DNA of 64,000 nucleotides from Gammaproteobacteria bacterium (lineage in GTDB: Bacteria > Pseudomonadota > Gammaproteobacteria > Steroidobacterales > Woeseiaceae). The notes below the pieces were generated by a model. The model had not been told where the DNA came from, searched no databases, and saw only the letters and a program-made list of their open reading frames with translations. The stretch spans positions 1-64,000 of the forward strand of contig QOPG01000002.1 in assembly GCA_003331585.1 (NCBI GenBank), read 5' to 3'. Positions within the stretch are counted from its first letter, which is position 1. Each line of letters starts with the position of its first letter. A program made the position numbers and the translations under genes. This document shows positions 29,935-44,032 of the stretch, in pieces.

Positions 29935-31455
29935 ATGGCTCAACCTGCAAATGTAATAACACAAAATATTTTGCTTGACCGGCTTGAAGAAATGAGAAGC
30001 TATGGCGGGGAACGATTAACATTTGGAATAAGTAATAAAATCTTAACCAAATTTATCGAACATGATATCAACCTAAAAAAAGCGATTAATGATGCACACG
30101 AAAGATTCAACCTCTTAAAAAAAAGCCATCCTAAATTTCTGACTCTATGTGAAAATGATCAAATCAAAAAAGCACAGAACAGTATTGTAAACTTTTACGC
30201 AAAAGATATGGTTAATCCCTACGTCGCAATAGGTGCAATGGGACCATGGGTTATCTCATTGAAAGGTGCGGTAATCTATGACTGTGGTGGCTATGGTATG
30301 CTCGGTCTGGGGCATTCTCCTGAACTGGCCCTTAGTGCAATGAAAAGACCTCATGTGATGGCAAATATTATGACGCCTTCACTCAGTCAAATGGAATTCG
30401 TAAAAATCTTAAAAAAAGAAATCGGTCATACCAGAAAAGATAAAACTAATTTTTCGGATTTTTGTTGTCTAAATAGCGGATCTGAATCGGTCACTATTGC
30501 TGCTCGTTTAGCTGATGTAAATGCAAAAGAAATAACCTCAAAAGGAGCACTTCAAGAAGGGAAGAAAATCGCTAGATTAACACTTGCTGGCAGTTTCCAT
30601 GGAAGAACAGATCGACCAGCCCAATTTTCGGACTCAACAAGATCCAGTTACAAAAAACATCTCAAATCTTTCGAAAATAATAATGAATTGTTCACAGTTG
30701 AACCAAATGATATTGAAGGTCTAAAAAACGTTTTCGATCGGGCTGAAAAAGAGAATATATTTTTTGAAGCATTCTTTATGGAGCCAGTTATGGGTGAAGG
30801 TAATCCCGGACAAGCCATAACTCCAGAATTTTATGATACAGCAAGACTATTAACAAAAAGCACGGGAACATTACTTTTAATTGACTCCATTCAAGCAGGA
30901 TTGAGGGCACAAGGTGTATTATCGATCATTGATTATCCAGGTTTTGAAAACTCTGAATGTCCTGACATGGAAGCATATTCAAAAGCGTTAAATGCAGGTC
31001 AATATCCATTATCAGTATTAGCAATGAATGGAAAAGCAGCTGAACTATATAGATCAGGAATATATGGAAATACAATGACGAGCAATCCAAAAGCTCTAGA
31101 TGTCGCCACGGCTGTTATAGATTCGCTCGATCCTGAAATTCGAAAAAATATTCGTAATCGAGGAAAAGAGTTGACCGAAAAACTCAAGAAATTAGAAGAT
31201 GAATTGGGTAATGATATAACTAACGTTCAAGGAACGGGGCTTTTAGCTAGTTGCGAATTGAGTAATAAATTCAAATGTTGTGGCTCCGAAAGTACAGAAG
31301 AATACTTAAGAATAAATGGGCTTGGAGTAATACACGGTGGAATCAATTCATTAAGATATACCCCTTATTTTAAGATAACATCTGAAGAAGTTGATTTAAT
31401 TGTTGAGTTAACAAAAGATGCAATCCTAAATGGACCGAAAGCTCAAAATATCTGA
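29935..31455 (+). CDS. Aminotransferase class III-fold PLP enzyme (divergent)
   Basis: CCLNSGSESVTIAARLA; LAGSFHGRTDRPAQFS; FFMEPVMGEGNPGQ; LLLIDSIQAGLRAQG; YSKALNAGQYPLSVLAM. Confidence 0.87.
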   Translation: MAQPANVITQNILLDRLEEMRSYGGERLTFGISNKILTKFIEHDINLKKAINDAHERFNLLKKSHPKFLTLCENDQIKKAQNSIVNFYAKDMVNPYVAIGAMGPWVISLKGAVIYDCGGYGMLGLGHSPELALSAMKRPHVMANIMTPSLSQMEFVKILKKEIGHTRKDKTNFSDFCCLNSGSESVTIAARLADVNAKEITSKGALQEGKKIARLTLAGSFHGRTDRPAQFSDSTRSSYKKHLKSFENNNELFTVEPNDIEGLKNVFDRAEKENIFFEAFFMEPVMGEGNPGQAITPEFYDTARLLTKSTGTLLLIDSIQAGLRAQGVLSIIDYPGFENSECPDMEAYSKALNAGQYPLSVLAMNGKAAELYRSGIYGNTMTSNPKALDVATAVIDSLDPEIRKNIRNRGKELTEKLKKLEDELGNDITNVQGTGLLASCELSNKFKCCGSESTEEYLRINGLGVIHGGINSLRYTPYFKITSEEVDLIVELTKDAILNGPKAQNI

Positions 31456-31852
31456 CTCAATTACAGCATCAACATGGTTGTTCTTGATTATTTTGATGTT
31501 TTCGTCGGCACCTCTTTTATCCGAATCAGGATTATCTACTAACGATAAAATATTCAGTAAAAAGCAAGCCAAGACTGGTCAAAAACTCTACGAGCAAAAC
31601 TGTCTAATATGCCATGATAAAAAATACTTCAGACCGGTATTTAAATCATGGGAAGGACAATCACTTGGTACTTTGTTTTTAGTTATGAGCTCATCAATGC
31701 CTCAAGGCAATCCAGGCTCTCTACCAGATAAGGAATATATTGATATTCTCGCTTATATGATGTCACAGAACCGATATAGCACCGGAGAAAAAGAGCTACC
31801 GACTGATGTAGATAAGCTTAATTCTATTACCATAAAATCAAGAAAAAAATAG
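31430..31852 (+). CDS. Exported class I c-type cytochrome
   Basis: Signal segment STWLFLIILMFSSAPLLSES; heme motif CLICH; distal Met region MPQGNPGSLPDKEYIDILAYMM. Confidence 0.88.
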   Translation: MDRKLKISDSITASTWLFLIILMFSSAPLLSESGLSTNDKIFSKKQAKTGQKLYEQNCLICHDKKYFRPVFKSWEGQSLGTLFLVMSSSMPQGNPGSLPDKEYIDILAYMMSQNRYSTGEKELPTDVDKLNSITIKSRKK

Positions 31853-31950: not shown

Positions 31951-33297
31951 ATGAAAAAATTAGTTCAATTTGATAGAAGATCATTTATAAAAGGCGCATC
32001 AATAGGTGCAGCAGCTGGCTCTTTGGCTAGCGTTACCAATATCGCTTCGGCAGCAGAAAAAAGACCTGGTGGAATGATAAATGGAAAATTTAATTTTGAT
32101 GAAATTTATGACCGAGATGGCACTGGGAATGTTAAATGGGATCAACAATACGGAAGATTTGGTGAAGAAAATGTTGATTTAGGGATGGGGGTTGCTGATA
32201 TGGACTTCAGAGGTGTTCCTGCTATTAAAGATGCTTTGGAAGATCGTATTCAACATAATAACTGGGGTTATGAAAATCTTACTAAATCCTACAAAGAAGC
32301 CATTGTTCAATGGAATGAAGAGAGACATGGTTATAAACTTGACCCGGATACAATAGTTATTTCGTCTGGTGTTCACACACCTCTTATTGCGACTCTGAAT
32401 GCAGTATGTCAACCACAAACCAAAGTGTTAATGAATACCCCAACATACAATGGGTTCTATGGCGATCTACTTTGGAGTAGAACTGTTGCAGCTGATAGCG
32501 AAATGTATAAAGATGAAGACGGTATCTATCATATCGATTGGGATGATTTTGAAGCTAAGATGACACCTGATTGTCACGCTTTCCTTTTGTGTAACCCGCA
32601 GAACCCAACTGGCAATATGTGGTCAGAAGATGATTTGATGAAAATGGGTGAGCTTTGCCTTAAACATGGCGTCACTGTTCTTGCTGATGAAATACACTGC
32701 GATTTTGTTATGGAAGGTAAAAAATATATTCCTTTCGCAAGTCTTCCAGACAAGGCTATTGTAAACAACAGCTTAACTTATAAAGCGGTCAGTAAAACAT
32801 TTAGCCTGGCGTCAATGAAGAGTGCTTATTTCTTTTCTACTAATCCCGTTCTCCTGGAACGAGTGAAGTATATGCACCGAGCTGATTTGAATTCGCTAGG
32901 AATTATAGCTAACGAAGCGGCCTACAGAAACGGTGGTGAATACTTTACCCAACTTAATGAATACATTGATGGAAATCAGACCTTTGCTGAAGCCTACATC
33001 AAAGAAAAAATGCCTGCAGTGAAATCCACAAAAGGTGAAGGTACCTATCTTCATTGGCTAGACATCAAAGAGGTTGCTGCAGCTGTTAATGCAGAACAAC
33101 ATGCTAAAGATAAAGGGATGAAAAGTGATTCGCATTATATGGAAGAATGGTTTGTTAAGAATGCTAAGGTACAGTTAAATCCAGGAGGAAACTATGGTAC
33201 TGGAGGTAATGGCCACATGAGGATGAATCTTGGTACTGCAAGACCGAATATTAAAAAAGCGATTGATAATATGGCTGCAGCTATAAAGAAAATCTAA
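31951..33297 (+). CDS. Tat-signal PLP-dependent aminotransferase (MalY/PatB-like)
   Basis: DRRSFIKGASIGAAAGSLASVTNIASA Tat signal; GVADMDF; NPQNPTGNMWSEDDLMKM; ADEIHCDFV; KAVSKTFSLASMKSAYFF. Confidence 0.9.
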   Translation: MKKLVQFDRRSFIKGASIGAAAGSLASVTNIASAAEKRPGGMINGKFNFDEIYDRDGTGNVKWDQQYGRFGEENVDLGMGVADMDFRGVPAIKDALEDRIQHNNWGYENLTKSYKEAIVQWNEERHGYKLDPDTIVISSGVHTPLIATLNAVCQPQTKVLMNTPTYNGFYGDLLWSRTVAADSEMYKDEDGIYHIDWDDFEAKMTPDCHAFLLCNPQNPTGNMWSEDDLMKMGELCLKHGVTVLADEIHCDFVMEGKKYIPFASLPDKAIVNNSLTYKAVSKTFSLASMKSAYFFSTNPVLLERVKYMHRADLNSLGIIANEAAYRNGGEYFTQLNEYIDGNQTFAEAYIKEKMPAVKSTKGEGTYLHWLDIKEVAAAVNAEQHAKDKGMKSDSHYMEEWFVKNAKVQLNPGGNYGTGGNGHMRMNLGTARPNIKKAIDNMAAAIKKI

Positions 33298-33356: not shown

Positions 33357-34706
33357 TTAAATAGACCAGCCGTCCACCGTATCGAATAAGACTGCTATTA
33401 GTTTCACCAAATCATCTATATCCACCCATTCATTCGGTCCATAGAAATTTCCACCTAATGAACCTATCCCATATGCAGGGACCCCTAGCAGGCGAATTGG
33501 ATATCGAATATCACCCGCGTAATGATTTGGATAGGATTTTGGTGCTATTCCAGTTATATCAGTTATTGACTCTCTTAGCACTAAACTCTCTTTTCCATTC
33601 CATCGTGCTTCACCTGGATTAGTTCGATAACCTTTAGCTAATATATGTATTTGGTATTTATTATTTTTTGATGAGATCTGATCAATAAACAATTGAGCTT
33701 CATTTTGAATTTTTCTGAGCAAATCGGCCCAATTATAATCAGCCTTAAATTTTAACCTAAAATTAATAGTAACTTTATCGGGTACTGATCCAATTCGATC
33801 TCCACCATTGAATTTTCCTACATTCATCTCTATTTCTTTTAGGATATCTTTCTTTAGATGATCCAAAAATCGCATTGAGGTATCTATAGCATCTCCTCCT
33901 TCTTTCCAATCAGATGAGTCTATACTGCCAATTTCCATCTGTGGTCCACGCCAGCCTCTAACCCGCATTTCCAGATCCAATACACCAAGAACTGCATTTT
34001 TAACATCCTCCAAACCTCTGCCAGTTTCTGCAGGATGAGCGTATAAAACAGACTGGATATTATGTTTTTGTTTTCTTATCCGCTCAAAAACAGGAAGACT
34101 TCCTCGACTACCACCACCTTTTCCATGAAGACTCATAACAACAGGTAGGGGTTTATCGTTCTCGCTTAAAATTCTTGCCGCAATCAGCATTGCAGCAACG
34201 CCGCCCTTGTCGTCGGACGTACCCAATCCATACATTCGATTTTTTTTAATGATTGGTTTATATGGGTCAGTTTCCCATCCTGCATCCTCAGAATGTGTAT
34301 CTATGTGCGAAAATATTGCTGATGTCTTTCTAGATGTTTTTTCAGGCCAGCCAACAATATTTATAAATGGCCCATCACTCTCTGGATTAGGTGGCATAAA
34401 TTCTGGATGATTCTGATATAAACTCGGCCTATCTGAAGACCTTTCTATCCTGTAGGGTAGATCACTGAGATAATTATTCACTAACGCCTGTGCTTCTTCT
34501 GCTGACTCACCTGTTTGGCTTCTGATAGTTATCAAATCACTAAGTAAGCTGATTAATTCCTCTCGTTTATTTTCTGCTAAATTGAGTGCGTTTGAAGATG
34601 CCGTCATAGCCTTTCCTTGAGAGAACGAACTTAAACCAACTGCAGTTAAACTTGAACCGACAATAAAATCTCTTCTTGATGACATGTTCTTTTTCTTTTG
34701 GCTCAT
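33357..34706 (-). CDS. M20-family amidohydrolase/peptidase with Tat signal
   Basis: MSSRRDFIVGSSLTAVGLSSFSQGKA Tat-like signal; IFSHIDTHSEDAGWETDP; GLGTSDDKGGVAAMLIA metal-site motif. Confidence 0.88.
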   Translation of the reverse strand: MSQKKKNMSSRRDFIVGSSLTAVGLSSFSQGKAMTASSNALNLAENKREELISLLSDLITIRSQTGESAEEAQALVNNYLSDLPYRIERSSDRPSLYQNHPEFMPPNPESDGPFINIVGWPEKTSRKTSAIFSHIDTHSEDAGWETDPYKPIIKKNRMYGLGTSDDKGGVAAMLIAARILSENDKPLPVVMSLHGKGGGSRGSLPVFERIRKQKHNIQSVLYAHPAETGRGLEDVKNAVLGVLDLEMRVRGWRGPQMEIGSIDSSDWKEGGDAIDTSMRFLDHLKKDILKEIEMNVGKFNGGDRIGSVPDKVTINFRLKFKADYNWADLLRKIQNEAQLFIDQISSKNNKYQIHILAKGYRTNPGEARWNGKESLVLRESITDITGIAPKSYPNHYAGDIRYPIRLLGVPAYGIGSLGGNFYGPNEWVDIDDLVKLIAVLFDTVDGWSI

Positions 34707-34728
34707 TTCGCTCTCCTTTAATACAATA

Positions 34729-35373
34729 TTATAAATTCATAATGGCATAATCGACAGATGCTTGAACAGGATCCAGTACAGTAATACCTAATAACTCTTC
34801 TAGAGAATCTCGATATCTTGCCATACCTGCACACCCCAGGATAATTATTTGCGCATCTTTTTCATCAATTAAATATTTACTCGCTTTTAAGATTTTATCC
34901 ATTGTGCTCTCTCCATTTACAGCTTCATCAACATCAATATCAAGACTCGTTTCACCTACATAGAATTTTTTTAAATTTAGTTTATCTATATATTTCTCGT
35001 GCCTAATGATTGAATCCTCTCCTAAAGCGATGACCCCAAAATTCTTTCTCTGATGATGGCAATATTTAACTGTGGTTTCATGGATACCATATATTGGGGC
35101 TGAAAATGCAAGAACTGATTCGCGAAGACCGGGGTCTGAATAACAAGCGATTATAAATGCGTCGAAGCTTGATAGTTTATTTTGTATTTTATTTAAGACC
35201 AGAGGTGCAACATTATTGATGTCTTCATCAGTTTCAATGCCGAATGGACCTTGTTTTAGTGAGATACAATCTACTTTCGTATTCTTTTTTTTTGGATAAT
35301 CAAGAAAAATAGCTGTCAGTTTGGTCGTAACATCTTCGTTCGAATTGGGGTTTATAACTAAAATTTTATACAT
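34729..35373 (-). CDS. Asp/Glu/hydantoin racemase family protein
   Basis: YKILVINPNSNEDVTTKL; two Cys motifs FIIACYSDPGLR and IIILGCAGMARY. Confidence 0.9.
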   Translation of the reverse strand: MYKILVINPNSNEDVTTKLTAIFLDYPKKKNTKVDCISLKQGPFGIETDEDINNVAPLVLNKIQNKLSSFDAFIIACYSDPGLRESVLAFSAPIYGIHETTVKYCHHQRKNFGVIALGEDSIIRHEKYIDKLNLKKFYVGETSLDIDVDEAVNGESTMDKILKASKYLIDEKDAQIIILGCAGMARYRDSLEELLGITVLDPVQASVDYAIMNL

Positions 35374-36845
35374 TAAAAATTAATATCTACCCCAAAATTT
35401 TGATCTCGATCCAATTCAGGGGCTAAGCGACCTGGCATACCAGTGCAATCAATTTTTTTTCTATGAATAAACTCACCATCACCACGATTAACTTTGAGGG
35501 AATTATCCTCTATTACTACCTCCCCTCGTTGTATAACAATTTCAGGCCAACCTGTTATTTTCATCCCTTCATATGGCGTAAATTCCATATTGTCGTGCAG
35601 ATCTTTAGCTCTAATAATTCTTTTAGCTTTTGGATTCCAAATAGCGATATCGGCATCTTTACCTTCTGTTATCGATCCTTTTCGATGATCTAAACCATAA
35701 ATTTTAGAAACATTTGTGGCTGCAAGCGCGACAAAATGATTGAGAGAAATTCTTTTCTTCACAACCCCTTCTGAGAATAATAAAGGTAATCTGGTTTCAA
35801 TGCCCGGTAATCCATTTGCGATTTTGGTAAAAGGAGGTTTCTTGCCTGCATGTAGTTTTCCGCTTTCATCAAAACGATAAGGTGCATGATCAGAGGAATA
35901 TACCTGAAATGTTCCATTTTGCAGACAACGCCATATCTCCTCTTGAGATGCCATATCTCGTAATGGAGGGCTACAACAAAATTGAGCTCCATACATTTCT
36001 GGTAAATCCATATCATTTGCATTTAAAAACATATACTGAGGGCATGTTTCACCAAATACCTTATGTCCTTCGTAACGAGCTTGTGCAATGATTCTCGCGC
36101 CTGCTTCTGTAGATACATGCACGATCAATATAGGCGTATCAATGAAACTTGAAAGTGCGACAGCTCTATTTATCGCCTCAGATTCAGCTGTTCGAGGATG
36201 ACTGAGGGCATGGTACTTTGGTTCTTTATGTGATCCTTTGATTAGCTTTTCACTCATCCAGTTAATCATGGCATTATTTTCGGCATGAATCATAGTTAGG
36301 GCACCTAATTTTTTAGCTGCTGCCATAATTTCAAGCATTTGTTCGTCATTTACAATTAGCTTGTCATAGGTCATATAAATCTTAAAGGAAGTTACTCCTT
36401 GCTCAATGACATTTGGTAATTCAACCTTAATCGCCTCTTCGGTAGGATCTGAGATAATTAAATGAAAGGAATAATCAATGACCGATTTAGGTTTTGCTCT
36501 TGAATGATATAAATCGAGAACATCCTGTAACTTTTGCCCTCTATGTTGAGCCGCGAAAGGTATAATGCATGTATTCCCTCCAAATGCAGCTGAAACACTA
36601 CCAGAGTAATAATCGTCAGATGTCATAATGCCACCGGATGATTCTTGCTCAATGTGACAATGAGCCTCAATTCCACCAGGCAATACAAGCTGACCCTCTG
36701 CATCAATTATTTTTTTAGAATCGCCGATATTTTTACCGATCGCTACTATGATTCCATCTTTTATGCCAATATCCGATCTAAAGGTTTCAGTAGCATTCGC
36801 TATCGTCCCATTTATAATCTTTAAATCCAGTTTTTTCATCTTCAA
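35373..36845 (-). CDS. Dihydropyrimidinase/D-hydantoinase-like amidohydrolase
   Basis: GQLVLPGGIEAHCHIEQ; GVTSFKIYMTYD (carboxylated Lys region); IHAENNAMI; PILIVHVSTEAGA; SSDHAPYRFDE. Confidence 0.92.
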   Translation of the reverse strand: MKMKKLDLKIINGTIANATETFRSDIGIKDGIIVAIGKNIGDSKKIIDAEGQLVLPGGIEAHCHIEQESSGGIMTSDDYYSGSVSAAFGGNTCIIPFAAQHRGQKLQDVLDLYHSRAKPKSVIDYSFHLIISDPTEEAIKVELPNVIEQGVTSFKIYMTYDKLIVNDEQMLEIMAAAKKLGALTMIHAENNAMINWMSEKLIKGSHKEPKYHALSHPRTAESEAINRAVALSSFIDTPILIVHVSTEAGARIIAQARYEGHKVFGETCPQYMFLNANDMDLPEMYGAQFCCSPPLRDMASQEEIWRCLQNGTFQVYSSDHAPYRFDESGKLHAGKKPPFTKIANGLPGIETRLPLLFSEGVVKKRISLNHFVALAATNVSKIYGLDHRKGSITEGKDADIAIWNPKAKRIIRAKDLHDNMEFTPYEGMKITGWPEIVIQRGEVVIEDNSLKVNRGDGEFIHRKKIDCTGMPGRLAPELDRDQNFGVDINF

Positions 36846-36862
36846 GACCTTATAAAATAAAT

Positions 36863-37798
36863 CTAATTACCTTTTAAGCTTAGCTCTAAACGATCAATTA
36901 ACCTTATTAATTCTTTTTTATCCTCTGCACTTAAGCTTGGTCCAGGATCACGCGACTTCGATGAACTAATAGCACCTCGCCGTAATAATGTTTCTTTTCG
37001 AATTGCTAAACCCAGTCCTGGTTGTTGCTCATATCTAACATACGGAAGATAAATATCAAATAAATCTTCAGCCTCATCAATTCTCCCTTGTTTGTGCAAC
37101 TTTATTACTTCTACTAACATTTCAGGGTATGCAAAACCGGTCATTGCTCCATCAGCTCCCCTTTGCATTTCTTGAGGAAGAAATAAACCGCCGTTTCCAG
37201 TCAATACCGATACTCTACGAGTATCACCGTTATCGCTATGTTTTCGGAGCTTTGATAGTTTATTTAAACCAGGCCATTCTTCATGTTTAAACATTACCAC
37301 TTGATCATATTCTTCTATTATCTTATTGAAAGTGGCAACTGAAATTTCTGATTTCGTAAAAAAAGGATAGTCTTGATAACAGACTGGAATTCGATCATCC
37401 AATTTATCAAGAATATTAGTTAGATAATTATAAAGCTTTTCCTCTGTTCCAATCCCGGGAGGAGGAGCAATCATCACTCCCGCCGCATCATTATCCATAC
37501 TAAAATTAGATAAATCGATTAAATTATCGATACCAGGGTTTGATACACCAACAATAATAGGCACTCTTTGATTAACTTGCTTTAATACCGTATTCAAAAA
37601 AAGTTTCGATTCTTCTATCGTCAGTTTAGGCGCTTCCCCCATAACACCTAATACAGTAATTCCATCCACACCTTTTTCTAGATAGAAATCAACAAGTTTT
37701 TTTGTACTTTCGAGATCAAGTTCGCCAGAATCCTTAAATGGTGTAGCTGAAATGATATAGACTCCCTCAGCAGTTTCATCAAGTTTGTTGTATAACAT
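36863..37798 (-). CDS. DapA-superfamily (dihydrodipicolinate synthase-like) lyase/aldolase
   Basis: GVYIISATPFKDSGELD; GVDGITVLGVMGEAPKLTIEE; VCYQDYP; QVVMFKHEEWPG (Schiff-base Lys); VLTGNGGLFLPQEMQRGADGAMTG. Confidence 0.9.
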   Translation of the reverse strand: MLYNKLDETAEGVYIISATPFKDSGELDLESTKKLVDFYLEKGVDGITVLGVMGEAPKLTIEESKLFLNTVLKQVNQRVPIIVGVSNPGIDNLIDLSNFSMDNDAAGVMIAPPPGIGTEEKLYNYLTNILDKLDDRIPVCYQDYPFFTKSEISVATFNKIIEEYDQVVMFKHEEWPGLNKLSKLRKHSDNGDTRRVSVLTGNGGLFLPQEMQRGADGAMTGFAYPEMLVEVIKLHKQGRIDEAEDLFDIYLPYVRYEQQPGLGLAIRKETLLRRGAISSSKSRDPGPSLSAEDKKELIRLIDRLELSLKGN

Positions 37799-37821
37799 CT
37801 GTAATAATCCTTATTTTCAAT

Positions 37822-39228
37822 CTATGATTTCTTTATGTATTTTTTTGATTCATCTATTAACTTAGTTTCGTATTTCATTTTCCCAGAAATATAATCTTGC
37901 ATTAAATTTATAAATACTCCACTTAAAAACAACAACGCAACTAAGTTTGGTATGGCGCTCACTGCAACAGAAATATTTGCTAATTGCCATAATTGATCAA
38001 CATTTGTTATCCCAGCAAAAATTATTCCAGGAAGAAAATATATCCATTTAATTATTCTAAATATTTTTTTACCAACTAATTCTGTAAGAGCTGTCTTGAA
38101 ATATATAAAAAAACCAATCTGAGTGGATAAACAAAAAGTTGTAATCGCAACTGATATAATTATGCTTGCAGTTGCCGTTGAATAATAACTGGAAAATCCA
38201 TCCAATAATAGCTCAATTCCTGAATTTCCACCTGCCAAAACGCCGCTAGATAAAATAACTACAGCTGTTATTGTGCAAACTAACGTAGTGTCAAAAAATA
38301 CCTCAGCTGCACCCCATAACCCCTGTTGAAATGGATGCTTTGTTTCAGCATTTGCATGCACCATTGGAGCAGTTCCCAACCCTGCTTCATTAGATAACAT
38401 ACCTCTAGCCATGCCCATTTGTATAGCCATCATTATTGAAGCGCCGGCAAAACCTCCAACTGCTGGTGCAGGAGAAAAAGCATAGCTTAGGATTTGCATA
38501 AATACTTCAGGAAGACTTTCAATATTGGCAAAAAATATAATTAACCCAAACCCTAGATACAATAGAGTCATTAACGGTACTAGTGCCTCGCAAAATTTTC
38601 CTATCCTCCTCACACCACCGATTGTTACAACCATCGTGACAAAAGCCATAAGTGATGTTGTTAGGTATGGGTTAATATTATAACTGGCATCCAATGCACG
38701 TCCTACAGTATGAGCCTGCAACAAAGATGAAGTGAAAATACAATTAATGGTAATGCCCAAACTGAATAAGATAGCCAAAAACCTCCATCCAAGTGCTTTT
38801 TTTATATAAAGCATTGGTCCACCAAAAATATCGCCATTGTCGTCTACTTCCCTATAATGTATGGCGAGAGTAATCTCAGCGGCTTTTGTGATCATTCCGA
38901 ATAAGGCCAGTACCCACATCCAAAAAATTGCTCCTGGCCCTCCAATCGATAGAGCGGTAGCAACACCAGCCATGTTCCCCATGCCAACTGTTCCGGCGAG
39001 TGATGTAGAGGTGGCTTGAAAAGGCGAGATAGTATTTTTTTCTCTGATATCTGAACGCTGAAATACTTTCAAAAAAGTCTCAGAAAAAATATATCTAAAA
39101 TTAGATAGTTGAAAAAACCGACTTTTAAATGTAAGAAATATCGACACGAATGCAATAAAGCACATTGTCCAAGGACCCCAGAGAAAAGCATCCAAATTAC
39201 TTGCTGCATTAAAAAAGATATCCCACAT
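37822..39228 (-). CDS. AGCS-family sodium:alanine/glycine symporter
   Basis: LAGTVGMGNMAGVATALSIGGPGAIFWMWVLALFGM; MGMARGMLSNEAGLGTAPMVHANAETKHPFQQGLWGAAEVFFDT. Confidence 0.95.
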   Translation of the reverse strand: MWDIFFNAASNLDAFLWGPWTMCFIAFVSIFLTFKSRFFQLSNFRYIFSETFLKVFQRSDIREKNTISPFQATSTSLAGTVGMGNMAGVATALSIGGPGAIFWMWVLALFGMITKAAEITLAIHYREVDDNGDIFGGPMLYIKKALGWRFLAILFSLGITINCIFTSSLLQAHTVGRALDASYNINPYLTTSLMAFVTMVVTIGGVRRIGKFCEALVPLMTLLYLGFGLIIFFANIESLPEVFMQILSYAFSPAPAVGGFAGASIMMAIQMGMARGMLSNEAGLGTAPMVHANAETKHPFQQGLWGAAEVFFDTTLVCTITAVVILSSGVLAGGNSGIELLLDGFSSYYSTATASIIISVAITTFCLSTQIGFFIYFKTALTELVGKKIFRIIKWIYFLPGIIFAGITNVDQLWQLANISVAVSAIPNLVALLFLSGVFINLMQDYISGKMKYETKLIDESKKYIKKS

Positions 39229-39434
39229 CAGACGATTCCCTATTTATAAGATTTATAGAATTATAATAACAAAAAGACTCGCATATTCCTCAATAACAAA
39301 AATGAACAACGAATATATTTTACCTATAACAAATAGTTTATTAGACTGAGTTGTATAACAGAATAATAAAGAATTTAATAAACATTAAAATCTCCAGCTT
39401 TTACTGGGAATTAAAGAGTTTAAGGATAAAAATT

Positions 39435-41498
39435 ATGCAAAATAAAAAAGGGATAAATATACTTACTTCTTACTTCGTATCTATCATATGCTTAATTGGA
39501 CTGATCGGCCTTGGTGGATGCACTCAAGAATCAAAATCCAGTAGCGAAGTAACTGTGAGCTCTGGGCAAGGAACAGAAGGAGGTCAATGGGAATATTTAG
39601 GTGGGGATGCTGCTCACACTCGATACTCGCCTGCGAATCAAATAAATGCAGAAAATTTTGAAGACCTTGAAGAGCAATGGGTTTGGGATGGAGCCAGTTT
39701 CAATGCTCAAAGTGGGAGATCTACACCGAGTTACATTAATGGAAAGCTCTATACTGTAGCTGGTGCAAGACGCTATGTGACAGCAATTGATCCAGCAACA
39801 GGTGAGTTAATTTGGTCTTATGGTGAACCGAAGACAGGTCGCTATGAATATTCGATGAGAAAAGATTATGGTAAGGGTGTTGCTTATGCTGAGATTGACG
39901 GAAGAGGTGTTATTTATATTTCTTCCCCCGCCTTCTTTTTGACGGCTCTTGATGCTGAAACGGGGCAACCTCTTGAAAACTGGGGAACACCTGTACCAAT
40001 AGATGGCTTTCCGAAATCTGGTGTTGTCGACATGCTTGCTGATCTTGGCCATGATTATGATCCTTACGAAGGCTTGCCACTTGAAACAGGCTATATAACT
40101 ACCTCGTCACCCCCTATTGTTGTCAATGGTGTAATAATCGTTGGAAACTCGCATGAGCAAGGTTATTACCAATCTCGTATTGAAAATGTACCGGGCGATA
40201 TATTAGCTTATGACGCCAAAACAGGAAAATTCCTATGGAAGTTTAATGTCATTCCAAGGCCGGGTGAATTTGGACATGAAACTTGGGAGAACGATGCATG
40301 GAAATATACTGGCGATGTATCATCATGGGCTCCTTTATCTGCGGATTTAGAAAGAGGAATTGTTTATATCCCGACTAATGGAGTCACTATCGACTACTAT
40401 GGAGGTTTTAGCCCTGGTGATAACTTATTCTCAACAAGTTTGATAGCTTTGGATGTTAAAACAGGAAAACGAGTTTGGCATTACCAGTTGGTCAAGCACG
40501 ATATATGGAACTATGACACGCCAACAGCTCCTGTATTATTGGATGTTGTCATTGATGGAAAAGAAGTTCCCATAGTCGCTCAAACTGCAAAGCAAAATAT
40601 GGTTTATACCTTTAACAGGGAAACGGGAGAGCCAATTTGGCCGATTGAATATAAATCAGTTCCTGCTTCTGATATTCCTGGTGAAAAGCTATCTGAGACG
40701 CAACCATTCCCTACTCTACCGAAACCATATGGTATGCAAGGACTTACACATGATGATCTAATTGATTACACCCCAGAGCTTAGAGAAGCAGCAATAGATG
40801 CTCTAAAGGAATATAAAATTGGACCACTATTCAACCCCCCTCTTCATAGAGATAATGATCAAGGATATAGAGCGGCATACTGGTGTCCTGGAGATGGAGG
40901 TGGAACAAATATTGATGGTCCAACTGTGGCTGATCCAACAACAGGAATCCTCTATGTATCCACAAGAAAAGCTTGTACTGCAAGAACAATAGTCTCGGGC
41001 GAAGAGCGTGATAAAAATATTAAACTGCCAACAGGAGCAAAATTCTCAGATTTCGCATCACTCAGATATGATAATCCTAGAGGACCTGATGGTCTGCCTT
41101 TCTTTAAACCACCATACAGTCATATCACTGCTATTGATATGAATACGGGTGAACATTTATGGCAGCTTCCTATTGGTGAAACACCCGAAAGAGTGTTAAA
41201 TCATCCAGATCTTAAGGATATGGATATCCCAACTACGGGAACTGGAAGAAATGCAGCGATGGGTGTAACTGATTCCATCTTTATGTATGCATCGACAGCG
41301 AGTGACGATACTCCAATGCTTTATTTTGTAGATAAAATTTCTGGAGAGCAACTCGGTGGTATTGAAATGGAAGATAAAACAAATTATGGCTTAATGACTT
41401 ATATGCATGAAGGAAAGCAATACATAATTTTACAAACTGGGCCAAAATTAACAGCACTTGCATTATATGATGAAGATGCTGAGGATGAAGATTACTAG
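39435..41498 (+). CDS. PQQ-dependent dehydrogenase (lipoprotein); track start 39351 is probably too early
   Basis: Lipobox LIGLGGC; GGQWEYLGGDAAHTRYSPANQINAENFEDLE; beta-propeller repeats; HDIWNYDTPTAPVL; TQPFPTLPKPYGMQGLTHDDLIDYTPELR. Confidence 0.93.
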   Translation: MQNKKGINILTSYFVSIICLIGLIGLGGCTQESKSSSEVTVSSGQGTEGGQWEYLGGDAAHTRYSPANQINAENFEDLEEQWVWDGASFNAQSGRSTPSYINGKLYTVAGARRYVTAIDPATGELIWSYGEPKTGRYEYSMRKDYGKGVAYAEIDGRGVIYISSPAFFLTALDAETGQPLENWGTPVPIDGFPKSGVVDMLADLGHDYDPYEGLPLETGYITTSSPPIVVNGVIIVGNSHEQGYYQSRIENVPGDILAYDAKTGKFLWKFNVIPRPGEFGHETWENDAWKYTGDVSSWAPLSADLERGIVYIPTNGVTIDYYGGFSPGDNLFSTSLIALDVKTGKRVWHYQLVKHDIWNYDTPTAPVLLDVVIDGKEVPIVAQTAKQNMVYTFNRETGEPIWPIEYKSVPASDIPGEKLSETQPFPTLPKPYGMQGLTHDDLIDYTPELREAAIDALKEYKIGPLFNPPLHRDNDQGYRAAYWCPGDGGGTNIDGPTVADPTTGILYVSTRKACTARTIVSGEERDKNIKLPTGAKFSDFASLRYDNPRGPDGLPFFKPPYSHITAIDMNTGEHLWQLPIGETPERVLNHPDLKDMDIPTTGTGRNAAMGVTDSIFMYASTASDDTPMLYFVDKISGEQLGGIEMEDKTNYGLMTYMHEGKQYIILQTGPKLTALALYDEDAEDEDY

Positions 41499-41504
41499 AT
41501 ACGC

Positions 41505-41539
41505 AGGGCTCCTCTAAGGGGAAGGGGCCCTATTTTTTT
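41505..41539 (+). terminator. Rho-independent terminator after the PQQ dehydrogenase gene
   Basis: Stem agggctcct (41505-41513)/aggggccct (41523-41531) with one G-U pair, followed by T-run 41533-41539; overlaps the stop of the convergent APC permease. Confidence 0.85.
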
Positions 41540-42825
41540 ATGTAAGGCGTTCTCAGTTTTATATAGATCATTACAAATGAAATATAAAGCAGGACTAGAA
41601 GCCATCCGCTTTGGTCAATATCTGAAAATGATAATGATCCCTGTCCAATCAGAATCAGTACCCCGATTGCACTGATAATCTTAAGCTTTTTCTCAGAAAA
41701 ATTCATAGTTGCATTGCTAAAAACATTCGGTAGTTTTTTTGCAAATCGAAAAGCCGCAATTAAAGGAATTAAATCATAAATAAAGACTAATCCTCCACCA
41801 AGCATAATAATGTACCTCAAATCCTTTCCTGCAAGAATTGGAATTAGACCAAATATTAAAATTACCGTTAAAAGAACATGTGGTGTATTAAATCGTTTAT
41901 TTACTTTTGCTAGGCTCTTTGGAAGCCAACCGTCATCACATGCAATTAATAATGATTTTGTCGCCCAAGAGAAAGTTGAATTAATGCTTGTAGCTAATGC
42001 AAAAAGACCAGCACCTACGATAAAAGCAACATATATTGATGGTGGTAATATTGCCTTAGCAACCTCTGCTAATGGCTTTCCTGCGGTTTGTTCAATCGGT
42101 AAGATTCCAACCGCCACGATCGAAACTAATGCAAAAAATACCGCCGCAACTGCCGTACTCAATATTATGGCACGTGGGAGATCCTTTTGCGGATTCTGCA
42201 TCTCACCCCCTAATTCTGAAATATATTGAGCACCTCCTGTTGAAAAAGAGAGAACGACACATGCCAAACCGAAGCCATACCAACCTTGAGGAAGTAACTT
42301 TTCAGGTTGAACAAAATTTTTATAATCAACTTCAAGGATTCCAAAAAATATCAATGACGAGAGACCACATAATAATAGGACAATCATAATCTTTTGTATT
42401 GAGGCAGCTTGCTTTACGCCAAATAAATTTACCACGTAAAACAAAAGCATGATTCCTATCGCTGTTAGATTAGGATTCAATTGTGGTAGCAATGCAATTG
42501 CATACTGAGAAAAACCTAGTGCAAATAACGCAATAAGGATATGCGTAAAAGTGAGTATCGCAAGATAAAAGAATCCGACTTTTGGTCCTAATATTCTCTT
42601 ACAGTATACGTATAAACCTCCTGTTGCAGGCATTGCCGACCCCATAAAAGCGATTGGTAATTGCTTTATAATGGATAATGTTGCTGACAATATAAAAGCA
42701 AATGGAATAGCATAAGCAGTAAAACCTATACCAATACCAATCAAAACCATTATTCCAGAACCAATTACCTGGCCCATCGCAATTGAGAACACATCCCAGA
42801 AATTTAAAGATCTTTTTAGTTCCAT
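41530..42825 (-). CDS. APC superfamily amino-acid permease
   Basis: FWDVFSIAMGQVIGSGIMVLIGIGIG; AMPATGGLYVYCKRILGPKVGFFYLAI; ELGGEMQNPQKDLPRAIILS. Confidence 0.92.
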   Translation of the reverse strand: MELKRSLNFWDVFSIAMGQVIGSGIMVLIGIGIGFTAYAIPFAFILSATLSIIKQLPIAFMGSAMPATGGLYVYCKRILGPKVGFFYLAILTFTHILIALFALGFSQYAIALLPQLNPNLTAIGIMLLFYVVNLFGVKQAASIQKIMIVLLLCGLSSLIFFGILEVDYKNFVQPEKLLPQGWYGFGLACVVLSFSTGGAQYISELGGEMQNPQKDLPRAIILSTAVAAVFFALVSIVAVGILPIEQTAGKPLAEVAKAILPPSIYVAFIVGAGLFALATSINSTFSWATKSLLIACDDGWLPKSLAKVNKRFNTPHVLLTVILIFGLIPILAGKDLRYIIMLGGGLVFIYDLIPLIAAFRFAKKLPNVFSNATMNFSEKKLKIISAIGVLILIGQGSLSFSDIDQSGWLLVLLYISFVMIYIKLRTPYIKK

Positions 42826-42829
42826 AGCT

Positions 42830-44032
42830 TTATTTAATTAGCATCAATGCCTCTTCAAAATCAGCAATCAAGTCATCAGGGTCTTCTAGACCCGTCGACA
42901 CTCTGATCATTCCTTGATAGATGCCCATTTCTTGTCTTTCTTCTTCGGGAATATCTAGAAATGCCATAGTTGCAGGAATTTGTGTCGTGGTTCTTACGCC
43001 TCCCAAACTAGCTGCAAAACAAGCTAATTCTAAGTTATCTAGGACAGTTAATGCATCATCACCATTATTAACTTCAAAAGTCAGCATACCTCCAAAATTT
43101 GGCATTTGCTTTTTAGCCAGGTGGTGTTGAGGGTGACTTTCTAATCCCGGGTACCAGACTCGTTTGACTTTAGGGTGTTTTGAAAAGTATTTAGCCAAAA
43201 TCATAGCTGTTTTACATTGCCTTTCCAGTCTTACTGATAAAGTTTGAATACCTCTCAATAATACCCATGCATTGAATGGGGAAAGAGGTGAACCCCATTT
43301 GACCATCGTGTTCCATCTTATTTGCTCCATGAAATCATCTGGAAGCAACTTTGACTTCATTGCGATGACACCACCAAGAGCATCATTGTGACCGCCGATA
43401 AATTTAGTGGCACTTTCAACAACAATGTCAACGCCCCAATCAAGCGGTCTAATTACATAAGGACTGGCAAATGTGTTATCACAAACAACAACCACTTCTT
43501 TTTCATGTGCTATTTTTACCAAAGCATCAAAATCAGGAACTTTCATACTTGGATTGGCTATGGATTCAAAATACAGAACTTTTGTGTTTTCTTGAATTGC
43601 ATTTTTTACTGCATCTGCATCTGAAGTATCAACAAATGTAGTACTAATGCCATAGTCGGTTAAACGATGATCCAACATCTCATGTGTTGAACTGTAAGTA
43701 GTCCAATCACAAACAATATGATCGCCACTTTTTAAAAGCCCAAATAAAGTTACTGATATAGCAGCCATACCTGATGCAGTTGCGAGGCAAGCATCAGCCC
43801 CTTCTATCATTATCATTTGCTCTTCAAACTGATATTCATTTGGATTGCCGCATCTGCCATAAATATTTACAGATTTTCTCTCTCCGTCAACTACCTTTTG
43901 ATAAACATCAGCACCATAATGAAAACTTGATGACATAAATATTGGAGCTCCAATAGAATTGGATCCCTCATCTGGAGCATAATATACAGCTTTGCTATCG
44001 AAATTCAGTTTTCTTCTCTTGTCTTCTTTCAC
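42830..44032 (-). CDS. Cys/Met metabolism PLP enzyme (cystathionine gamma-synthase/lyase-like), GTG start
   Basis: GRCGNPNEYQFEEQMIMIEGADACLATASGMAAIS; VVCDNTFASPYVIRPLDWGVDIVVESATKFIGGHNDALGG; SLGGVRTTTQIPA. Confidence 0.94.
   Translation of the reverse strand: MKEDKRRKLNFDSKAVYYAPDEGSNSIGAPIFMSSSFHYGADVYQKVVDGERKSVNIYGRCGNPNEYQFEEQMIMIEGADACLATASGMAAISVTLFGLLKSGDHIVCDWTTYSSTHEMLDHRLTDYGISTTFVDTSDADAVKNAIQENTKVLYFESIANPSMKVPDFDALVKIAHEKEVVVVCDNTFASPYVIRPLDWGVDIVVESATKFIGGHNDALGGVIAMKSKLLPDDFMEQIRWNTMVKWGSPLSPFNAWVLLRGIQTLSVRLERQCKTAMILAKYFSKHPKVKRVWYPGLESHPQHHLAKKQMPNFGGMLTFEVNNGDDALTVLDNLELACFAASLGGVRTTTQIPATMAFLDIPEEERQEMGIYQGMIRVSTGLEDPDDLIADFEEALMLIK

Follow-up and report, generated by a model that had tools for sequence, protein, structure and literature searches.

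A conserved hydantoinase operon of Woeseiaceae and its M20-fold protein with replaced active-site residues

Among the closest described systems to the locus reported here is the D-hydantoin (hyu) pathway, which combines a hydantoinase, a hydantoin racemase, and a carbamoylase, as in the clusters of Alloyangia, Variovorax, and the Sulfitobacter W027 plasmid. We analyzed a five-gene operon in a window of 64,000 nucleotides (contig QOPG01000002.1) from a marine Woeseiaceae bacterium, whose assembly of 1.31 Mb is 81% complete. The hydantoinase of the operon is 51 to 55% identical to those of the hyu clusters, its racemase belongs to the same two-cysteine family, and in several of these clusters the two genes also overlap or nearly do so. 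Compared with the hyu pathway, the operon lacks a nitrilase-type carbamoylase, encodes an AGCS transporter instead of an ABC or TRAP system, and has gained a DapA-like lyase and an M20-fold protein with a non-canonical active site, hereafter M20*. We regard the locus as a conserved, so far uncharacterized variant of hydantoin-type catabolism. As judged from alignments, the surprise is not the gene list but an M20-fold clade in which replaced, non-canonical yet strictly conserved residues appear to occupy the catalytic positions.

Reading of the open reading frames (ORFs), together with NCBIfam and Pfam profile scans in which the two libraries concurred, bore out the gene order given in an earlier note on this DNA. 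All five lie on the minus strand within 33357-39228, in the following order of transcription:

37822..39228, minus strand: AGCS-family Na+/amino-acid symporter, 468 aa, gene 1 of the operon (TIGR00835, PF01235)
36863..37798, minus strand: Schiff-base lyase of the dihydrodipicolinate synthase (DHDPS) superfamily, 3dz1 subfamily, 311 aa (PF00701, PDB 3dz1)
35373..36845, minus strand: D-hydantoinase/dihydropyrimidinase-type cyclic amidohydrolase, 490 aa, or 488 aa from the ATG at 36839 (NF009941, TIGR02033)
34729..35373, minus strand: Asp/Glu/hydantoin racemase-family protein, 214 aa (PF01177, 148 bits)
33357..34706, minus strand: M20*, M20-fold protein with predicted twin-arginine translocation (Tat) export, 449 aa (PF01546, 76 bits; PF07687)

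Fold, active site, and predicted export of M20*

M20* is predicted to adopt the M20 fold, because PF01546 scored over its cutoff and the AlphaFold model (pLDDT 84.7) matched the structures of DapE, carboxypeptidase G2, and carnosinase in Foldseek (E value of 2e-26, probability 1.0). With M20 peptidases and deacylases (DapE, ArgE, and carboxypeptidase G2), it shares the fold, the domain layout, and the HxD and GxxDxKGG motifs; it differs from them in its Tat-type signal and in lacking the canonical catalytic Glu-Glu, the third ligand Glu/Asp, and the C-terminal ligand His. Profile alignment to DapE and an hhalign comparison based on one canonical M20 sequence place G195-K196 at the Glu-Glu position and H224 where the third ligand Glu would be; the C-terminal His aligns with Y422 or F421, while H134 and D165 are retained. 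The roles of the aligned DapE residues are those generally given for the family. The relevant elements of M20* are as follows:

34605..34706, minus strand: predicted Tat signal, with SRRDF at residues 10-14 (SRRxF-type motif)
34110..34127, minus strand: HGKGGG motif, residues 194-199, at the site of the canonical catalytic Glu-Glu (alignment of 29 homologs)
34020..34037, minus strand: HPAETG motif, residues 224-229, with H224 at the site of the DapE Zn2-ligand Glu (invariant in 29 homologs; alignment)
33498..33527, minus strand: NHYAGDIRYP motif, residues 394-403, with the extra invariant H395 (H395, D399, I400, R401, and P403 invariant)

The signature HGKxGG / HPAET / H-x3-DIRxP / FYxPxEW runs through 29 M20* homologs of several phyla (Woeseiaceae, Maribacter, Flammeovirgaceae, Acidobacteria, Acidimicrobiia, and others). 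More than 60 residues are invariant across this set, including clustered His/Lys/Asp/Glu motifs; H194, G195, K196, G198, and G199 are all kept, and H194, K196, H224, E227, H395, D399, R401, and Y422 remain invariant down to 30% identity. When 84,980 genomes were scanned with an alignment of four M20 homologs, the nearest matches were Woeseiaceae records. DapE and the other M20 protein of the same genome keep the canonical residues, so the loss is specific to M20*. Since the catalytic residues are missing, we rejected the idea that M20* is a conventional peptidase or carbamoylase. Pelagic Woeseiaceae were reported to carry many peptidase genes whose substrates are unclear (PMC12175321), and counting M20*-like proteins among the peptidases because of homology could be misleading.

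The N terminus of M20* (SRRDFIVGSSLTAVGL) contains the twin-arginine motif SRRDF and a hydrophobic stretch, on which we predict Tat export, in line with the signal proposed earlier. An SRRxF-type motif is kept in most Woeseiaceae, Bacteroidota, and Acidobacteriota homologs and is absent in the distant Acidimicrobiia group, whose members lie near HyuA/HyuB-type genes. M24 metallopeptidase-family genes recur beside solo M20* homologs (L041, L043, L053, and L054; by family scans in the first three).

A protein that lacks both the general base and three canonical metal ligands, is predicted to be exported, and shares an operon with a transporter could also be a pseudoenzyme or a periplasmic binding protein that supplies the AGCS symporter by capturing an amino-acid derivative. 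We consider this unlikely, because the clustered motifs among the invariant residues resemble a catalytic site, and AGCS carriers are not known to require a binding protein. A further proposal, which we put forward tentatively and would sooner doubt than assert, is that the M20* clade may be an unrecognized family with an active site rebuilt from H134, D165, H224, and the invariant H194, K196, and H395. Such an enzyme would be exported, work by a new mechanism, and supply a hydantoin-type pathway of marine bacteria.

Partner genes and conservation across Woeseiaceae

The hydantoinase scored 723 bits with NF009941 (cutoff 647) and 546 bits with TIGR02033 (cutoff 393) and matched the D-hydantoinase 1k1d with an E value of 3e-116; its metal-ligand motifs (HCH62, K155, H187, H243, and D319) are complete, as expected of a D-hydantoinase/dihydropyrimidinase. 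The racemase has both cysteines common to the cluster homologs (C77 and C181) and matched the hydantoin racemase 3qvj with an E value of 1e-9; it is a putative hydantoin racemase by its PF01177 match and cysteine pair, although PF01177 also includes other racemases and lyases. The two genes are adjacent, as in the hyu pathway, and the overlap of the hydantoinase stop and racemase start (TAATG), to which the earlier note drew attention, is present; but such overlaps recur elsewhere and are ordinary for this gene pair. No export signal was seen in the hydantoinase, racemase, or lyase sequences, and these three look cytoplasmic. The symporter scored 397 bits with TIGR00835 (cutoff 273), its sole PDB relative is AgcS (6cse, E value of 4e-75), and its gene leads every syntenic locus.

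For the DapA-like protein, the best PDB match is the uncharacterized structure 3dz1 (E value of 2e-82), followed by L-2-keto-3-deoxyarabonate dehydratase. The Schiff-base lysine K171 and the Q142-D143 pair are invariant; like these two structures, the protein has its Schiff-base Lys in register and QD where DHDPS has Tyr-Asn, whereas the operon, unlike a setting for that dehydratase, has no sugar-acid genes. GVMGE and YQDYP stand in place of the Thr-Thr (TTGE) and Tyr-Asn (YN-x-P) motifs of DHDPS. A role as the DHDPS of lysine biosynthesis (DapA) was rejected on these replaced motifs and on a TIGR00674 score of 94 bits against a cutoff of 206. On Salipiger and Agrobacterium plasmids (L142 and L144), genes of this subfamily adjoin those of 5-oxoprolinase PxpA/B and D-amino-acid transaminase.

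Seven of the nine genomes of the genus carry the DapA-like gene, and the same seven carry M20*, always adjoining; the two genomes without them are only about 65% complete. The five-gene set is syntenic in these seven and in a second genus. The order AGCS-DapA-Hyd-Rac-M20, flanked on one side by a pyrroloquinoline quinone (PQQ) dehydrogenase gene, is seen in six named metagenome-assembled genome records, and in five of them a Tat-tagged PatB-like gene follows M20*; no PatB-like gene was detected in the sixth (L037), where the locus stops about 1.4 kb past the M20 match. The second genus (g417, genome G715, locus L048) has an extra short-chain dehydrogenase/reductase (SDR) gene, giving AGCS-DapA-SDR-Hyd-Rac-M20 with PQQ and PatB-like flanks. 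Three genomes of one more genus (G137, G721, and G722) and one of another (G711) have AGCS-DapA-SDR-Hyd, plus Rac where the contig reaches. No SDR ortholog was found elsewhere in the genus of the window, the best matches being only about 30% identical. It seems that on the way to this genus the M20* gene joined the operon and the SDR gene left.

All five genes are under purifying selection: pairwise ratios of nonsynonymous to synonymous substitution rates are 0.02-0.2, except for the racemase pair L038/L042, which has too few changes, and the values of more distant pairs depend on near-saturated synonymous sites. Given this selection and the synteny in other Woeseiaceae, the arrangement is not due to chance. 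The earlier note missed the changes at the M20 active site, the conservation of the flanks, and the SDR gene, which relatives have and this locus lacks. The flanking genes are the following:

39351..41498, plus strand: PQQ-dependent dehydrogenase-family lipoprotein, divergent, ATG at 39435, conserved flank (PF01011, 523 bits)
31951..33297, plus strand: PatB/MalY-like pyridoxal phosphate (PLP) enzyme, Tat-tagged, convergent, conserved flank (TIGR04350, 328.5 bits, below the cutoff of 340)
31430..31852, plus strand: small cytochrome c, conserved flank (PF13442; syntenic)
29935..31455, plus strand: class-III aminotransferase-like protein, conserved flank (best NCBIfam matches acetylornithine-transaminase-like, below cutoffs; syntenic)

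The PQQ dehydrogenase flank is at the same place in the six named relatives, L048 (G715), G137, G721, and G722. G137 and G721 retain all four flanks, and in G722 the PQQ and aminotransferase side is visible before the contig end; in G711 none of the four stands beside the operon. This retention across Woeseiaceae genera would fit a locus for the catabolism of D-amino acids or oxidized amino acids. In that case, the main periplasmic and supply steps would fall to the products of the four flanking genes, and the hydantoinase would deal with one entry compound. The DapA subfamily, which also occurs beside D-amino-acid transaminase and 5-oxoprolinase genes or beside an SDR and a PatB-family gene, points the same way. 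However, the four flanks are transcribed separately, from the other strand, and none of them has an assigned substrate; we find this reading possible but rather doubtful, and it overlaps the hydantoin reading rather than excluding it.

Several other features of the region were observed. The PatB/MalY-like enzyme stands beside the operon across Woeseiaceae genera with a Tat signal of its own, and exported PLP enzymes are uncommon. G137 and G721 have a second copy of the PQQ-dependent dehydrogenase gene after cytochrome c (L172 and L175). An APC permease gene and an adjacent methionine-gamma-lyase-like gene (41530-44032 in the window) are conserved in relatives, where they lie downstream of the PQQ gene. 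Between PQQ dehydrogenase and APC permease, G096 has a protein that, judged by eye, resembles penicillin acylase (L031, 15195-17429), and this gene is absent from the corresponding place in the window. Promoter and terminator scans of the locus gave signals no higher than in shuffled sequence.

The carbamoylase gap and the proposed route

A recognized hyu carbamoylase would be either a nitrilase similar to D-carbamoylase (DCase) or a TIGR01879-type M20 protein, and neither was found in the nine genomes of the genus, most of which are incomplete (G096 is 99% complete). No protein scored over the TIGR01879 cutoff of 204, the sole match in the genome of the window being DapE on contig 27; nor was there a clear D-carbamoylase ortholog, the nearest protein in G096 being AguB. 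Contig C1 of the host genome encodes a nitrilase-superfamily protein (L114, 1351-2403) with 21% identity to an annotated DCase and no NCBIfam match; it adjoins an ORF read as VOC-like and is a possible missing carbamoylase. With no standard carbamoylase found, either the ring-opened product is handled otherwise, for example by this nitrilase, or M20* has a new role.

The earlier note had taken the M20 protein as the hyu carbamoylase. In such a classic pathway, M20* would be an N-carbamoyl-amino-acid hydrolase acting on the hydantoinase product and would have displaced the nitrilase-type D-carbamoylase, which would agree with the gap itself and with comparable hydantoinase-racemase operons elsewhere that carry a carbamoylase; Microvirga even has a true M20-type enzyme, ErtE, in such a cluster. 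But M20* has neither the catalytic Glu-Glu nor the ligand His of M20 carbamoylases, its NCBIfam scores are closer to ArgE/DapE than to TIGR01879, and its family is also found unlinked to hydantoinases. Moreover, M20*, if exported, cannot hydrolyze the product of a hydantoinase that is predicted to be cytoplasmic. We consider this pathway quite improbable. The outline of a hydantoin-type operon in which an AGCS transporter accompanies an exported M20 protein is supported, while the carbamoylase role had to be given up, as had the view of the DapA-like enzyme as an odd extra, for many Proteobacteria have its orthologs next to genes for racemases and amidohydrolases.

Our preferred reading, to which we give even weight for and against, is an operon that breaks down a 5-substituted hydantoin, a similar cyclic ureide, or N-carbamoyl or amino-acid relatives, with exported M20* acting first. 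M20* would be a periplasmic hydrolase that releases or modifies a conjugate before import. Its metal site would have been rebuilt from H134, D165, and H224, each either retained or replaced, while H194, K196, and H395 lie in conserved motifs nearby. The AGCS symporter would take up a small, zwitterionic compound resembling an amino acid. In the cytoplasm, the racemase with its two cysteines would interconvert the chiral center, the zinc hydantoinase would open the ring, and the 3dz1-subfamily lysine (Schiff-base) lyase would cleave or dehydrate the derived keto acid. The SDR oxidoreductase, lost in the genus of the window, would participate in relatives.

Several points weigh against this reading. 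AGCS proteins are amino-acid carriers, so hydantoin uptake is doubtful. Since the amidohydrolase type differs between clusters, hydantoins may not be the substrate of every one, and a hydantoin or cyclic ureide is a putative assignment. The M20* homolog lies away from the operon in G137, G721, G722, and G711, and G109 carries M20* without this DapA; therefore, a functional link between M20* and the operon is not proven. The Tat signal is likewise a motif-based prediction.

A wider module and comparison with known systems

Relatives of the DapA-like protein are held in 73 plasmid records. Among 15 annotated neighborhoods of such relatives (6 to 12 kb, picked from annotated hits, so that the rates are not unbiased), a racemase-family gene is listed nearby in 8; 9 have some kind of amidohydrolase, and about 10 have an SDR. 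Hydantoinase and racemase both lie near DapA in 4 of 18 neighborhoods taken from a search of the phylum. G544, of the same phylum, has DapA, hydantoinase, racemase, and carbamoylase together, the last sharing 58% identity with an annotated N-carbamoyl-D-amino-acid hydrolase. A DHDPS-family gene beside Hyd-Rac in Ketogulonicigenium was not counted as a subfamily member, having no BLAST match at 1e-5 to the DapA-like protein of the window. In the open-access literature (subscription papers were outside the search), no publication on a hydantoinase-racemase-DHDPS pathway was found.

Ergothioneine utilization (ErtD/ErtE) shares the logic of hydantoinase plus carbamoylase, and both proteins are over their cutoffs in the Microvirga cluster. 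The hydantoinase of the window differs in lying far under both ErtD cutoffs (238 versus 650 and 198 versus 600), and an ErtD reading of it was rejected. The Microvirga cluster (L112, 6596-12918) joins ErtD, ErtE, racemase, DapA-like, and SDR genes, which suggests a tie to ergothioneine-type hydantoin use.

The uncharacterized clusters of Alpha- and Betaproteobacteria (Sulfitobacter alexandrii, Labrenzia, Martelella, Microvirga, and Comamonas) differ from the operon in their ABC or TRAP transporters, in retaining the SDR, and in a varying amidohydrolase, which is a D-hydantoinase in Comamonas, an ErtD over its cutoff in Microvirga, ErtD-like in Maritalea, and TRZ/ATZ-like in S. alexandrii; M20* was not seen in the clusters that were read. 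They resemble it in the clustering of racemase, amidohydrolase, DapA-subfamily, and SDR homologs, with DapA 48 to 57% and racemase about 30 to 40% identical, and the SDR of L048 is 46 to 55% identical to those beside DapA in these clusters. The locus of the window, a defined and conserved gene set with a testable substrate, is thereby tied to this racemase/amidohydrolase/DapA/SDR catabolic module.

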